A stretch of DNA of 30,472 nucleotides from a virus. Below are positions 5,817-12,407 of the stretch, one piece after another; the first letter of the stretch is position 1; the number at the start of each line of letters is the position of its first letter. The notes beneath the pieces are model-generated. The model was not told the DNA's origin, ran no database searches, and saw only the letters and a program-made list of their open reading frames with translations. Where the stretch lies: the IMG/VR virus record IMGVR_UViG_3300030419_001805, positions 1 to 30,472 of that record; one strand, given 5' to 3'. A program made the translations under genes and the position numbers.

Positions 5817-7529
5817 TTATTTTATCCTACTGAAGTTGTTCTTCTTTTCAAACACAATATGATTCTGAAACTTGTCTGTCATGGAATCAGACTTATGACT
5901 AATCACGAATATATTCGCACGATGTCCAAATGTCACCAACAATTTTAAAAACTCCTCTGTGCCAACAGAGTCCAGACTAGAGTCAAACACCTCATCCAAT
6001 ATCAGAAGATTGCAATTAACACTGTTCTTCAATCTAGCAATCTCTCTCCATGCTAGAAGAAGAGACAAATCTATTCGTAACCTCTCCCCCTCACTAAAAC
6101 TTTGGTATGTAAACTCATCCCTATGGCGACTTCGTATTGTCTCGTTGAAATTCTCATCCAAGTGAAACTGACAGAAGAAATCCATGTCTGCAAGATACTT
6201 ATTAATCAACTTGTTCATAACAGGAAGATAATGCTTTATTATCTTCGACTTAATTCCAGAGTCTTTCAAAATACCGGTTGCTATACCGTAATAATGTTTA
6301 TCTTCTATCAGTTGCTTTCTTCCCTGAACATGTCCCTTACCCTCAGTCACTAAGGCATTGAACTCATCCTTAGCATCTGATATTTCAGATCCTTCCATGA
6401 GAAGAGAGTCGCGTTTACTCTTCATCTTATTGATGTATTGATTCAACCCACCAATCTTACTTTGCTTATCAGAAACACTCTTCTCAAGAATCTTCACATC
6501 ACCAAGAACATAATTTATCTTACTCAATCTGTCCTCTAACAACTTAATATCACCGTCCAAATCTTCAATAATACTTAGATGTTTTTCCTTATCATCCTGA
6601 CCTTCTTTAAAGATACAATTCTTATGATGTTCCTCGATGGTCTGTTTACACGAAGGACATGTGTCATTGTCGTGGTAAAACTTCATATTGGAATCAATAC
6701 CCTTTACTTTATTTCGTAACTGTTTCTGTTCAGATTCCTTATTCAACAACTCCTTTGGTATAGAATCCTTGTCCTCTATACTTTCCAAATTTTCTCGAAT
6801 GAGTTTCTGCAACTCATCCCTCTCTCTGGTTAGTTCTTCTATCTGGGACAGAGATTCTTCTATCTCTTTGTTGTGCTTGTCAACAGACTCATTGGATTTC
6901 TTCTCCAATGCATCTATTAGTTTTTTCTTATCTTCAGTTTTACTTCTTACGAGTTCTATCTTGTGATCTATATCTTTAATATATTCTTTCACCAAATTCA
7001 TTTTAGATTTCACCAATGAATTCATCACAGAGAACACATCTATGTCTAATAGATTTTCAACCACTAACCGACGATCTGCTGCGGTCAACTGCATGAAAGG
7101 AATGTAATTTGAAGAACCCAATATCACCACCTGACAAAATGACTTATATGTCATCTTGAGAATCTGTTCTTCCAGCACTCTCTGATAATCCTTCGACTTA
7201 GAATCCTGCGGTATCAATACATCATTCTTGTATATCTCAAACTTCTTTGGCTTGAGATGTCTCAAGACACGATAATCATCTTTACCAACAGAGAATACAA
7301 TTTCCACCTCACAATTTTTATCGTTGATTGAATTGGGAAGTTGGGGAATGTTGATCCCACGAAATGATTTACCAAACAAAGCAAATGTTAGTGCGTCGAG
7401 CATCGTTGATTTACCCGCACCATTCTCACCCGACACAAGTGTATTTTCATGTCTTGTCAAATCTAATGTTGTCTTGTAATTACCAGTTGAAAGAAAGTTC
7501 CTCCAACTAAGTGTTTTAAATACTATCAT
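5817..7529 (-). CDS. 46: gp46, Rad50-like recombination endonuclease subunit
   Basis: gp46 is the ATPase/SMC-like partner of gp47. The T4 complex resects DNA ends for recombination-dependent replication and takes part in host DNA breakdown. The 570-residue product (T4: about 560) shows the full Rad50 layout: a Walker A motif GENGAGKST at residues 34-42, long Glu/Lys-rich coiled-coil arms from about 160 to 440, a zinc-hook CPSC at 291-294 between the arms, the ABC signature FSEGERLRIDLS, and Walker B LLILDEVFDSS with Asp512 and Glu513. I chose the ATG at 7529 (MIVFKTLSWRNF) over an upstream start because it overlaps the previous gene as ATGA and matches the family N-terminus. Three small genes separate it from gene 47. 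Confidence 0.97.
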   Translation of the reverse strand: MIVFKTLSWRNFLSTGNYKTTLDLTRHENTLVSGENGAGKSTMLDALTFALFGKSFRGINIPQLPNSINDKNCEVEIVFSVGKDDYRVLRHLKPKKFEIYKNDVLIPQDSKSKDYQRVLEEQILKMTYKSFCQVVILGSSNYIPFMQLTAADRRLVVENLLDIDVFSVMNSLVKSKMNLVKEYIKDIDHKIELVRSKTEDKKKLIDALEKKSNESVDKHNKEIEESLSQIEELTRERDELQKLIRENLESIEDKDSIPKELLNKESEQKQLRNKVKGIDSNMKFYHDNDTCPSCKQTIEEHHKNCIFKEGQDDKEKHLSIIEDLDGDIKLLEDRLSKINYVLGDVKILEKSVSDKQSKIGGLNQYINKMKSKRDSLLMEGSEISDAKDEFNALVTEGKGHVQGRKQLIEDKHYYGIATGILKDSGIKSKIIKHYLPVMNKLINKYLADMDFFCQFHLDENFNETIRSRHRDEFTYQSFSEGERLRIDLSLLLAWREIARLKNSVNCNLLILDEVFDSSLDSVGTEEFLKLLVTFGHRANIFVISHKSDSMTDKFQNHIVFEKKNNFSRIK

Positions 7530-7846
7530 AAGACACCTTCCGACCAAAGTTTATCTGTCACAGAATACTGCAAATGACTTGCTTCTGCTTCGCCGTCACC
7601 GTCCCATGTATCTGTTTCCCATTGCATAACATGAACCATTTCATGAACAATGGTAGCGACGAAATCTCTTAGACTTTGATTTGCTGAAACAACGATTCTA
7701 TATTTACCCTCATCCTCTTCACAAAAACCCCAACAATCCATATCGTCATAGATGTTAAGTTTACATGTTATCTCCACATCATCAGGAATGGAAAAATATT
7801 TCCTACACCACTCAACAATCTTATATGCTTGGTTCAGAGTATTCAA
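7526..7846 (-). CDS. HExxH zinc metallopeptidase-like protein (TTG start)
   Basis: This small protein of 106 residues carries HEMVH at residues 68-72, the zinc-peptidase signature, followed 14-16 residues later by acidic residues (Glu86 and Glu88 in DGDGEAEA) that could supply the third ligand. The layout resembles SprT/Wss1-type minimal gluzincin domains, but the protein is short and family membership is inferred. The frame opens with TTG at 7846, preceded by AGGAG at 7 bases and overlapping the upstream stop as TTGA. The next in-frame Met is at residue 36, so the TTG start is well supported. It lies immediately before gene 46 in the Mre11/Rad50 operon. A role in trimming protein-DNA adducts would fit and is speculative. 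Cysteines at 14, 28, 38 and 42 may add a second metal site. Confidence 0.8.
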   Translation of the reverse strand: MNTLNQAYKIVEWCRKYFSIPDDVEITCKLNIYDDMDCWGFCEEDEGKYRIVVSANQSLRDFVATIVHEMVHVMQWETDTWDGDGEAEASHLQYSVTDKLWSEGVL

Positions 7847-8028
7847 CCTCTTTCTCCTGCTGATGCTGCAAGAACAAGACCAACATTAGCAAGAGCGTAG
7901 GAAGCCCATACAAGACACCACGCCCATTCCTTTTTCATAGCATAACCCACAGCAACTATAGCATAGAGAATACCAGAAATCAAAGGGAGTGCCTTTGTTA
8001 GTGCATCAATCATACCAGGCTGGTACAT
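7843..8028 (-). CDS. Small two-helix membrane protein
   Basis: I place the start at the ATG at 8028 (MYQPGMIDALTKALPLIS), giving 61 residues, because GGAAAG lies six bases upstream of it. Longer starts up to 8064 and a shorter one at 8013 are possible. Two hydrophobic segments, about residues 14-33 (PLISGILYAIVAVGYAM) and 38-57 (WCLVWASYALANVGLVLAA), are joined by a short loop with KKEW, a hairpin topology with both ends on one side. The N-terminal part overlaps the preceding gene, and its stop overlaps the TTG of the metallopeptidase-like gene, so the three are probably translated together. No function can be assigned. Small membrane proteins inside phage recombination operons could anchor partners or act on the host envelope. 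Confidence 0.65.
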   Translation of the reverse strand: MYQPGMIDALTKALPLISGILYAIVAVGYAMKKEWAWCLVWASYALANVGLVLAASAGERG

Positions 8029-8461
8029 TGCCATCTTTCCACTTAGCGAATTTTGCTTTTTCATTTTTGTAGTAGTTGCGATATGAACTCACAACAGACT
8101 CCTCTTTACAGTAATCAGGCATACACTTCGGCCACTTTGATAAAATACCGATTGGTAAATCTGGTCTATTCTTGTCGCACCATTCAATCACCCTTTGAGT
8201 TTTATGAACCTTACCATACCGTCGTGTGTATTCTGCACACAGAGCCATGGCATGTTTAATCAACCAGTCATAATTTTCCGTAGAAGCACGAACCCACTTG
8301 GTACATGGGTGGTTATAGAATGATCTCTTGTATGGTGCATCACCATCTGGGTGTGCTGCACATAACATCTGCGCAGATTCCAAAATCATCTTCACCACAT
8401 GCTTGTCACACGCATAATTCGCGGCAACAACTGGATTCTCATCCAGTACAAAAATATTCAT
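8006..8461 (-). CDS. Conserved phage protein of unknown function (DKHVVKM family)
   Basis: The 151-residue product starts MNIFVLDENPVVAANYACDK and contains the pattern CDKHVVKMILESAQML, then HPCTKWVRAS, NYDWL, and EYTRRYGKVHK. I know this family from many marine T4-like phages but know of no proven function. It is a soluble, mostly helical protein with conserved His, Cys, Lys and Asp residues that could form an active site. The C-terminal end (KWKDGNVPAWYD) is also typical. The start is clear: GGAGAG lies nine bases upstream, and the ATG overlaps the gene 47 stop as ATGA. Its tight coupling to gene 47 suggests a DNA-metabolism role. Confidence 0.85.
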   Translation of the reverse strand: MNIFVLDENPVVAANYACDKHVVKMILESAQMLCAAHPDGDAPYKRSFYNHPCTKWVRASTENYDWLIKHAMALCAEYTRRYGKVHKTQRVIEWCDKNRPDLPIGILSKWPKCMPDYCKEESVVSSYRNYYKNEKAKFAKWKDGNVPAWYD

Positions 8462-9504
8462 AACGATAAACTCTCCATATACAGATCTTTCATAAGTCGT
8501 TTCATTCTATCCTTGTCCTGTATTTCTTCCAAGGTATCGATCTCATTGTTTATTATTGTAATGGTATCCTGCGCCAAGTCAACCATATCTTCGTCATCAC
8601 TGCTTGTACAATCGAATTCTTCGACCGTGGTTATCTTCGCTGCTCCACATTCATATAACTTATCCATATACCTGTCAAAACTATAGGGATGATTTTTATT
8701 AAGTACATCCACCCTAACATAGCAGTTATCCATGTCAGAAAAATTCAAAGAATCAATATCAAGTGGACCATCATGATCGCTATATGATAATCTACGAAAC
8801 ATTCTATTTGGGTTTTCTATAAACTGGATGTCTCTAGTGTCTGTATCTAATACATGAAAACCCTTCTTCTCCTCTAGGTCAGAGAATGTTATTTGGTATT
8901 GGGTTCCAAGATAATATATGTTTCCTCTATCCTGTCTGCAATGAAAGTGACCAGACAATACCTTTTCGTACCTGTCAAATATATCTGGGTTCATTCCACC
9001 GACATGATTAATTCCACGCATGACCTGATAACCATCCAACTCAAGGTGTCCTACTAAAATAGGCGCACTAGCAGTTTTGATAAAGTTAACAGACTCACTG
9101 TAATTTTCTTTATTGATCCAAGGCACTAGTGCTATGTCTAGACCATCGAAGTTCCTGACTACAGGCTCCTCGTAAATATTAATATCATCACTAAACAATT
9201 CTCTAATAGAATTTATTCGGTTTGTGTTTCTGTAGTAAACATCATGGTTACCGAGTATACAATGAAAATCAATACCGTCTTCAGAGAGTTTAGTCATGAA
9301 TCTTTCTCTGATTTGATTTAGTATATTGAAATTAACAAACTTGCGGCGATCCATTAGGTCACCAGCATGTATGACAGTTTTTATGTCATTCTCCTTGAGG
9401 TATGGGAAAAATACCTCGTCAAAGAACTTCATAAAATAATCAAAAAATAACTGAGAGTCTGATCTCGCTCCAAAATGAGTATCGTTAATCAGCGCTATTT
9501 TCAT
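8458..9504 (-). CDS. 47: gp47, Mre11-like recombination endonuclease subunit
   Basis: gp47 is the nuclease half of the gp46/gp47 complex, which resects double-strand ends so that UvsX-type strand exchange can prime replication. The 348-residue protein (T4: 339) has all the metallophosphoesterase motifs in order: DTH (Asp8, His10), GDLMD (Asp49), GNHD (Asn86, His87), GHLE (His153) and GHFH (His186, His188). These residues would hold two metal ions. The start overlaps the end of gene 55 by 20 bases, so the two are probably translationally coupled. The C-terminal acidic part, about residues 280-340, matches the region that binds the Rad50 partner in this family. It is intact and I see nothing missing. 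Confidence 0.97.
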   Translation of the reverse strand: MKIALINDTHFGARSDSQLFFDYFMKFFDEVFFPYLKENDIKTVIHAGDLMDRRKFVNFNILNQIRERFMTKLSEDGIDFHCILGNHDVYYRNTNRINSIRELFSDDINIYEEPVVRNFDGLDIALVPWINKENYSESVNFIKTASAPILVGHLELDGYQVMRGINHVGGMNPDIFDRYEKVLSGHFHCRQDRGNIYYLGTQYQITFSDLEEKKGFHVLDTDTRDIQFIENPNRMFRRLSYSDHDGPLDIDSLNFSDMDNCYVRVDVLNKNHPYSFDRYMDKLYECGAAKITTVEEFDCTSSDDEDMVDLAQDTITIINNEIDTLEEIQDKDRMKRLMKDLYMESLSL

Positions 9505-10078
9505 CAGTGTTCTCGTCCATAAACTGATCTAGTTTTCCAGATTTCTTAGCCCTTTTCTTTTTCTTAGGCTCGAACTTCTTTAATTCTTTTTCGTTTATTT
9601 GAAAGGCATCTTTCATAGCATCTTGAACATTCATATCGTCTTTCTTTTCAAAGTAATTCTCTCTGTACCACTTCTGTATTATGACATCTTCTTGACTCTC
9701 AAGCAACTTAAATTTTATATATGACTGCTTCTTTTCTTTTTCGATCCTTCGAAGAAAAGCATAGTAAGTTATCTGTGTAAAATATGAGAAGGGATTCTTT
9801 GATTTCTCTGAATCAAAATTATGAGCATACATGATGCAATTCTCAATAGCATCACCTATCATCTCTTCCTTATATGGGTAGTTTGCAAAATTAGTTTTGA
9901 ATGAAAGGTGTTCTGCTATCTTCATAAAGCATTCACCAATATAAGAAGTTACCGGTGGTCTTGGTTCTCCAAGATCATTGGCTTCATTTACCAACTCTTT
10001 CCATTCACACATAGCAGCAAAGAACTGCTTGTTGTCTATGTAATGGGGCTTCTTTTCACTGTCTTTATTTTCTTTCAT
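9485..10078 (-). CDS. 55: gp55, late-transcription sigma factor
   Basis: gp55 is a reduced sigma factor that directs host RNA polymerase to T4-type late promoters (TATAAATA). In T4, activation also needs the sliding clamp. The 197-residue protein (T4: 185) matches the family through YIDNKQFFAAMCEWK, the region-2-like core EEMIGDAIENCIMYAHNFD and NPFSYFTQITYYAFLRRIEK. The C-terminus is Lys-rich (KKKKRAKKSGK) and then LDQFMDEN, which recalls the C-terminal clamp-binding tail SLDFLYE of T4 gp55. No Shine-Dalgarno sits directly before the ATG. Instead an 8-codon leader ORF with a strong AGGAG ends on the start as ATGA. gp55 expression therefore probably depends on coupling to that leader. Confidence 0.95.
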   Translation of the reverse strand: MKENKDSEKKPHYIDNKQFFAAMCEWKELVNEANDLGEPRPPVTSYIGECFMKIAEHLSFKTNFANYPYKEEMIGDAIENCIMYAHNFDSEKSKNPFSYFTQITYYAFLRRIEKEKKQSYIKFKLLESQEDVIIQKWYRENYFEKKDDMNVQDAMKDAFQINEKELKKFEPKKKKRAKKSGKLDQFMDENTDENSAD

Positions 10079-10210: not shown

Positions 10211-10924
10211 TTAACTATAGTCTTCACCGTTAATATCAAAATCCCAATCACTGAACCTGTTTCCATAGTCAGGGTGATCCGTATCATCGCCTGTATACTC
10301 TGGTGGTTCCTTTATATTGTCCTTCATACCTTTCTCATATTCCTCAAGCATTGAAGTTAAATCTTCTTCGTCTAGATACCCATCACTTAAAAGATCTTTG
10401 ATGATGTCAGGTGGAATCATGAGAGTCATCATGATAAATTCAATATCATCTTCACTCATATCTTTACGATTCTTTTCCATCTTGCTTATCTCATCAAAGA
10501 GACTCTCAGGAGTTGAATCCATGTCTGGTCCTGCCATACCAGGTGGCATGGGTGGAAAATTAAACTTCTTCTTCATGATATCGTCTAGGTTTGTTATTCT
10601 CTTTTCGACCGGATTGTTATAAACCCTATCAATCTCCAATTCATAGAGTTCCACAGCAGACTTGGTAGGCTTCGTGATAAGAAGCACCATGCTCTTTGGT
10701 ATTTTTATTTTTCTATCTGCTGAATGTTCAGACCATTTCTTAAGAACGGTCATCTGGTTCACATTCATACCGTTAAAAATCGGCTGAATATGAAACGCCA
10801 TAGGGTCTGTTATTACATACTTGTCACCAACTTGACCCACAATTCTAGTTATTATTTCCTCACCAGTCGTTAACTTTAGTAATCTGTAAACCGTCTTATT
10901 CTTCTTACTGGTTTTTTTATCCAT
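10211..10924 (-). CDS. Conserved phage protein with Sm-like N-terminus
   Basis: The 237-residue product begins MDKKTSKKNKTVYRLLKLTTG. I prefer the ATG at 10924, which overlaps the uvsW stop by 8 bases and has GGGGA upstream, over a TTG four codons earlier. Residues about 12-90 (LLKLTTGEEIITRIVG, YVITDPMAFH, KIPKSMVLLIT) look like the five-stranded Sm/LSm small barrel, with the GEEI turn typical of strand 1-2. The rest is acidic, with PPMPPGMAGP linkers and a helical part (DDIEFIMMTLMIPPDIIKDLL). I remember similar proteins near uvsW and 55 in marine T4-like phages but know of no proven role. The Sm-like fold suggests RNA binding or a protein hub. Confidence is high that it is a gene, low on function. 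Confidence 0.8.
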   Translation of the reverse strand: MDKKTSKKNKTVYRLLKLTTGEEIITRIVGQVGDKYVITDPMAFHIQPIFNGMNVNQMTVLKKWSEHSADRKIKIPKSMVLLITKPTKSAVELYELEIDRVYNNPVEKRITNLDDIMKKKFNFPPMPPGMAGPDMDSTPESLFDEISKMEKNRKDMSEDDIEFIMMTLMIPPDIIKDLLSDGYLDEEDLTSMLEEYEKGMKDNIKEPPEYTGDDTDHPDYGNRFSDWDFDINGEDYS

Positions 10925-12407
10925 TGCTTTCCCCAATTGATATTAGATTATATCGAAACTTCTCATTATTATATATCTTAACTCGTTCATCCAAATGCCT
11001 CATAGTGTGGTTTCGCCATTTTTTGTAGCAAAGATTATCTGCTATATCATATACCTTTACTTTATCCTTTTGGTTCGATTTTCTTAGACCTCTTCCTATT
11101 GACTGTAGAACTCGTATCACAGATTTGGATGGTGATGTAAAAATGATGTTATGAATGTTCTTGATATTTATTCCCGTTGAGCATGTTCCATATGATGCAA
11201 CGAGTGTAGAGTTTTTATTATTGTCTACAATATGTCGAATTTCTTCTCGCTGATCTACATCGGTTCCACCGTGAATAAGGTATACATCATCCTTTTTGCC
11301 CTTCAGTTTATCATATAAAGGTATACCATGCTTTTCCACGAAGTTAAACAGAACAAGAGTATTTCCCTTCAGAGAAGCAGCCAGATCGCATATGAAGTCG
11401 TTTCTCCTCGTATTTTTAATTATCCATGCCATTTCATCCTGATATGAGGCTCTCTTTATAGTCTCTATCTCCTGCTGATTATAACCGAATATTAAGCAGT
11501 CAATTTCTAGTTGAGACAGAAGATCCTTCTCTATAAGTTCTTTCGTTGTAGTTGTTTTGAACACTCTACCAAATAGACCTTCAATCACTAGTTTGTGTGT
11601 CTTTGATCCATCCAAAGTACCTGTAGTACCGAATCTATACTTTGCTTTAGTCAGTTTCTCCATCAGACCTGTAAGAGATTTTGCTTTGAATAAGTGACAC
11701 TCATCTCCGAAAGCAACCTCGAAGTCCCAGAAATATCTGGGGTCTATTTTATAGAGGCTCTGCCAAGTGCTAATTATTACTTGCTTTTCTGTTTCTTTGC
11801 TTTGACCCGAGAAAATCTTATGCACATTATCGTCAACACTCCAATCATCCATAGATGAGTAATCCTTGAAATCGCTAAAGAGTTGAGATACAAGGCTAGT
11901 GGTTGGGACCACGATAAGTATTTTTTTATCTTTTGGAATGATTGAAAGATAGTATCTTAATAAAATGTAAATAATCAATGACTTGCCAGACCCGGTGGGG
12001 CTGAGGAGTAGCGACCTGCCGTTTTTTATAGAATGAGAAACTGCATCAATTTGATGAGAATGTGGCTCTATTTTCTTATTATTTACAGAAAGATTTAGAG
12101 ATTCTATAAACTCGTCGATGCCACCTGGGTACCCGGGTGAGCCGGAAGATGTTGTTTCTGATGTGTTAAATGTATAATTTCTATCTTTACAAAATGAGAT
12201 TACATAATCCAATAAACCTTTATAGATCACCCGCGTGTGAATGTTATATAACCTTATCTTTCCATCCCACTTTCTTTTCTTATACGCGGGAGTGAATTGA
12301 TAATTAGGGACTGTAAATGTAAAGAAATCTGATAACTCTTTTGCTATAGATCTTTCACAATCCACTTTAATATAAACATCATTTAAGTCGGAGATCTCTA
12401 AGTCCAT
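10917..12407 (-). CDS. uvsW: UvsW, RNA/DNA and recombination helicase
   Basis: UvsW is an SF2 helicase that unwinds R-loops, regresses stalled forks and branch-migrates Holliday junctions, switching the phage from origin to recombination-dependent replication. The 496-residue product starts MDLEISDLNDVYIKVDCERS, in line with the T4 N-terminus. An ATG 18 codons upstream would intrude into uvsY and is rejected. The N-terminal domain (FFTFTVPNYQFTP, KRKWDGKIRLY) is the UvsW nucleic-acid-binding domain. Then come Walker A SPTGSGKS (136-143), the DECH box at 235-238, STGINIKN and the arginine-finger motif QSIGRGLRKS. Its ATG overlaps the uvsY stop by one base (TAATG). Confidence 0.97.
   Translation of the reverse strand: MDLEISDLNDVYIKVDCERSIAKELSDFFTFTVPNYQFTPAYKKRKWDGKIRLYNIHTRVIYKGLLDYVISFCKDRNYTFNTSETTSSGSPGYPGGIDEFIESLNLSVNNKKIEPHSHQIDAVSHSIKNGRSLLLSPTGSGKSLIIYILLRYYLSIIPKDKKILIVVPTTSLVSQLFSDFKDYSSMDDWSVDDNVHKIFSGQSKETEKQVIISTWQSLYKIDPRYFWDFEVAFGDECHLFKAKSLTGLMEKLTKAKYRFGTTGTLDGSKTHKLVIEGLFGRVFKTTTTKELIEKDLLSQLEIDCLIFGYNQQEIETIKRASYQDEMAWIIKNTRRNDFICDLAASLKGNTLVLFNFVEKHGIPLYDKLKGKKDDVYLIHGGTDVDQREEIRHIVDNNKNSTLVASYGTCSTGINIKNIHNIIFTSPSKSVIRVLQSIGRGLRKSNQKDKVKVYDIADNLCYKKWRNHTMRHLDERVKIYNNEKFRYNLISIGESNG

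Follow-up and report, generated by a model that had tools for sequence, protein, structure and literature searches.

A predicted minimal gluzincin-type metallopeptidase encoded among the exchangeable genes between genes 47 and 46 of a T4-like marine virus

Introduction

Minigluzincins such as abylysin, jannalysin and selecase combine an HExxH motif with a glutamate as metal ligand. In SprT-type proteins and in Wss1 the third metal ligand is a histidine, in SPRTN H130, which lies 15 residues past the motif. The IrrE/PprI and CapP proteins (PF06114, M78) carry an HExxH peptidase domain at their N-terminus, to which PprI adds HTH and GAF-like parts responsible for ssDNA binding. Both PprI and CapP are activated by ssDNA (PMC10904395). 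A mycobacteriophage protein with an SPRTN-like structure has been noted earlier (PMC12363180), so that SprT-fold proteases of phages are not new as such, and small genes near gp46 have been described as forming hot-spots in cyanophages (PMC3037559).

Here we analyze a window of 30,472 nt, positions 1-30,472 of IMG/VR record IMGVR_UViG_3300030419_001805, which derives from a T4-like marine virus. A first-pass annotation had described an HEMVH gene with a TTG start in the 47-46 (Mre11/Rad50) operon, coupled to gene 46 by an ATGA overlap, and had raised the idea that an SprT/Wss1-type protease might be paired there with a resection nuclease. We refer to this 106-aa HExxH ORF as hex, and to two neighboring genes as pex and tm73.

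Results

The hex locus

Six neighboring genes lie on the minus strand of the window, listed here in the order in which that strand is read:

9485-10078, minus strand: gene 55-like late sigma factor, heading the 55-47-46 block
8458-9504, minus strand: gene 47, Mre11/SbcD-like (phrog_100, 2.2e-101)
8006-8461, minus strand: pex, pyrimidine-glycosylase-like (Pyr_excise, PF03013/phrog_624)
7843-8064, minus strand: tm73, small membrane-type two-helix protein, conserved part from near 8013
7526-7846, minus strand: hex, 106 aa, metallopeptidase-like, HExxH
5817-7529, minus strand: gene 46, Rad50/SbcC-like (phrog_77, 1.3e-162)

The TTG start codon of hex is preceded at a distance of ~8 nt by AGGAG and aligns with the ATG start of the close orthologues L002 and L004 (L numbers denote loci of our surveys), while the TGA that ends the gene and the gp46 ATG at 7529 run into each other as ATGA, from which we infer translational coupling of the two genes. 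HEMVH occupies residues 68-72; of the 62 stop-to-stop frames in the window that reach a length of 80 aa, hex alone contains an HExxH motif. Comparison with relatives gave dN/dS values of 0.06-0.13 for the measurable pairs, the most diverged pairs yielding no value, probably because synonymous sites are saturated. Hex is a real gene on which purifying selection acts, and the original observation was borne out. One detail of its placement inside the 47-46 operon can be added: hex is flanked by both genes and adjoins gene 46, with pex and tm73 separating it from gene 47.

No T4-type late promoter octamer was found near the operon, and the window as a whole shows no excess of this octamer over chance. 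A TGEE-type motif opens proteins encoded upstream of gene 55 (window positions 10211-10936; phrog_527/471); proteins of this type also occur near hex at several unrelated loci (L005, 3933-4274; L006, 2752-3090; L023, 5431-5802).

Sequence family and motif conservation

Our homologue survey comprised 81 hex loci with 55 distinct untruncated sequences. In all 55, HExxH is retained and followed further on by an E-x-(E/Q)-(A/C) element, so that the loss of the motif in homologues, which would have spoken against the first-pass annotation, was not seen; the sole dropout, L186, is cut by a contig end. The pattern that seeded our final scan included the first motif histidine and left out the remainder of HExxH as well as the later glutamate, so that conservation of these residues was not built in for the loci which that scan added. 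The spacing between the motif histidine and the glutamate amounts to ~14-15 residues in most homologues and reaches 39 in some (for L131 the regular expression gives 12, with the aligned Glu at 14). In hex the conserved downstream glutamate is E86, 14 residues past the motif, and no histidine is conserved downstream of HExxH. Conservation and spacing thus point to H68, H72 and E86 as metal ligands, with E86 as the likely third one, and to E69 as the putative general base.

Among Pfam families, hex scored 27.9 bits against PF20573 (DUF6782, a putative metallopeptidase family), slightly above the cut-off of 27, and 26 bits in the six-frame genome search, just below it. The match covers the HExxH region and the strands upstream of it, although only residues 28-87 of hex align, to positions 57-115 of the 241-position model. 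All 21 aligned hex members matched DUF6782 at E <= 1, and all 21 matched phrog_10499 and phrog_16532, two PHROGs families with no functional annotation, as does hex itself; L054, L016 and L039 fell below the DUF6782 cut-off, and L062 gave no match at E <= 0.01. The hex family is best explained as a DUF6782-like family of marine phages corresponding to phrog_10499.

Hex reached 13.7 bits against the SprT-like profile PF10263 (cut-off 25.6), which had no match in the profile search of the record and was weakly matched by 11 of the 21 aligned members (best E-value 1.1e-4). It likewise reached 13.7 bits against IrrE/M78 (PF06114; cut-off 22). WLM (PF08325) was absent both from the Pfam matches of hex up to E = 10 and from the 25 families listed at E <= 1 for the 21 members. 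An NCBIfam search with the hex protein returned no match, defense-system profiles no meaningful one, and a pattern scan of GTDB genomes for cellular hex homologues no confirmed case. Our literature search found neither a mention of DUF6782 nor WLM and cyanophages mentioned together.

Predicted structure and fold relatives

The AlphaFold2 model of hex, built from 21 sequences, is of high confidence (pLDDT 91.9, pTM 0.86) and depicts a compact zincin with a helix, three strands, the HExxH helix (residues 59-78) and a last helix (86-102) that starts at E86; it contains no membrane segment. Foldseek against the PDB gave no match at E <= 0.001; the top match was SPRTN (E = 1.5e-3, TMq 0.62), whose fold is common to minigluzincins and IrrE, followed by abylysin (3.3e-3), PprI/IrrE (8e-3), CapP (1.1e-2) and then selecase. 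SPRTN also headed the results of a PDB-sequence profile search (E = 0.0078), in an alignment that takes in the GxC hairpin with the HExxH helix behind it. Among viral models, the structural matches of hex were phage proteins labeled SprT-like, IrrE-like or uncharacterized.

Hex differs from SPRTN and other SprT-like proteins in its putative third ligand, a glutamate in place of the histidine, which also sets it apart from Wss1, and in comprising 106 aa in all, with no extra subdomain and no DNA-binding or partner motifs. Strict membership in the SprT or Wss1 families is rejected on the profile and third-ligand tests. Of the initial family assignment there remain an intact HExxH motif and SPRTN as the closest solved structure; the profile that rises above its cut-off is DUF6782. 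Minigluzincins resemble hex in size (~105-110 aa) and single-domain build, with TM-scores of 0.46-0.56, but share only ~8-14% identity with it and are cellular archaeal proteins. The features that define the minigluzincin type, a single domain of ~100 residues with HExxH and a glutamate on a second helix, are all present in the hex model and its conservation pattern. Judged by model and sequence, hex belongs with the SprT, minigluzincin and IrrE folds as a minimal relative of gluzincin type.

Gene content between 47 and 46 across related phages

We collected 80 gp46 loci from related phages, in 76 of which the 47-46 gap was readable, and tallied the gap contents ourselves. No gene was present in 31 gaps (<=13 nt). 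The commonest cargo was pex without hex (27 gaps, spread across L051-L127); hex occurred in four (L049, L050, L054, L062), in L049 as a trio with pex and tm73. An N6/N4 DNA methylase gene sits in two gaps, L073 having been tested and L101 judged from its resemblance. The other 12 contain different genes, namely SET-like (L115, L125, L128; confirmed by Pfam for L115 only), HNH-like (L078, L093) and glycosyltransferase-like ones (L117, L118), the latter two kinds assigned by eye, as well as small or unassigned ORFs. The SET-domain-like proteins of L115, L125 and L128 end in a C-terminal GCGCGK-type motif. In the two isolated cyanophages that we examined, the gap is occupied by an unrelated small ORF. 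The 47-46 gap is a cargo hotspot, and hex is one of many exchangeable genes found there.

Other searches located hex in the 47-46 gap of L002 and L004 as well, yet most homologues lie away from 46/47: of the 81 hex loci only 6 adjoin both genes, though flanks are short at some of the 81. In IMGVR_3300030419_004788 and IMGVR_3300030107_005430 (contigs of 123 and 157 kb; L087 and L110) hex and gp46 are ~70 kb apart, and the 47-46 gap carries pex. Conserved synteny of hex with 46/47 is rejected on these counts, and the proposed pairing of protease and resection nuclease is not general. On a tree with an unresolved backbone, the six 47-46 hex sequences fall into two separate well-supported clades, and none of 200 bootstrap trees united them. 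Hex may have entered the gap at least twice; a single origin is also compatible with the tree.

Other neighbors of hex

The commonest recognized neighbor of hex homologues is a tm73-like two-helix membrane protein, encoded near hex at 14 of the 81 loci, mostly directly upstream with overlapping codons. L027 has the pex-tm73-hex trio with neither 46 nor 47 in its flanks; at L004, L054 and L062 only hex is present, and at L045 and L046 only tm73, beside a portal-like or primase-like gene. A search for tm73 in named phages gave no match. The protein contains a conserved WASYALANVGL-type stretch (L022, L027, L028, L036, L044) and is better conserved than hex at most loci that have both.

Elsewhere hex has a DNA ligase gene in its vicinity (L028), or genes for a UvsW-like helicase (L016, L014) or a DUF6267 protein (L014). 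Genes of the destabilase type (i-type lysozyme), to our knowledge unusual in phages, were found near hex in L022 (6297-6680), L044 (2534-3070) and L010 (7934-8314). No single partner of hex is universal.

Discussion

We consider it probable, from the conserved motif and the predicted fold, that hex encodes a minimal zinc metallopeptidase which belongs to the exchangeable cargo of the 47-46 gap and most likely trims a small number of proteins. Its active site looks intact, and the protein is apparently an active metallopeptidase. The product would be soluble and single-domain, with H68 and H72 on helix 59-78 holding the metal and E69 activating a water molecule; E86, the residue with which the last helix opens, would complete the metal site. 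Metal binding and catalysis would then proceed as in the gluzincins that share the SprT/minigluzincin/IrrE fold. Hex and gp46 would be translated together through the ATGA overlap, and the enzyme would most likely act during infection on a single protein of phage or host, or on a handful of them. A fold retained for a non-proteolytic role is possible.

What such a protease might cut is a matter of several narrower readings. Hex could be a regulatory protease of the IrrE/PprI or CapP kind, directed at one particular regulator of host or phage and perhaps responding to ssDNA. PprI, IrrE and CapP rank among the top PDB fold matches, the activation of PprI and CapP by ssDNA would suit this role, the putative glutamate ligand is that of gluzincins, and a homologue in cyanophage S-SCSM1 is annotated as IrrE. 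However, hex has no counterpart of the HTH and GAF-like domains, its M78 score stays well below the cut-off, and no repressor gene was recognized next to it, which makes this reading rather unlikely.

We regard as unlikely, too, that hex acts as a DNA-protein-crosslink protease trimming end-bound proteins so that the Mre11/Rad50-type nuclease gp46/gp47 can resect. Here SPRTN as the best fold and profile match, the overlapping start and stop codons in the gap and the relatives near ligase or helicase genes are in favor, and the two separate hex clades in the gap keep an end-processing role possible. Against it stand the low share of gaps with hex, the presence of unrelated cargo in the same gap, the lack of a DNA-binding domain beyond the 106-aa core and the SprT and WLM profile results. 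As hex is swappable and in related viruses usually located elsewhere, any intrinsic tie to break repair is hypothetical. An elaborated form, in which a stripped-down SprT-fold protease with a Glu ligand clears DNA ends for gp46/gp47, was gained at the 47-46 gap at least twice and in this window forms an exchangeable repair cassette with the base-damage glycosylase-like gene, appears more doubtful still. That hex and tm73 constitute a membrane- or lysis-linked unit is highly improbable: the tm73-like genes at 14 loci, mostly directly upstream, and the destabilase-type lysozyme genes next in L022 and L044 speak for it, but most homologues have no recognized tm73, either gene also occurs alone, and the hex model is devoid of a membrane segment.

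Should hex indeed serve the Mre11/Rad50 pair of the phage by cleaning up DNA ends, it would represent a minimal model of crosslink repair. Regardless of the role of hex, the space between these core recombination genes in marine T4-like phages swaps repair, methylation and protease genes, and this exchange of cargo at the 47-46 position matters whenever function is guessed from operon context.
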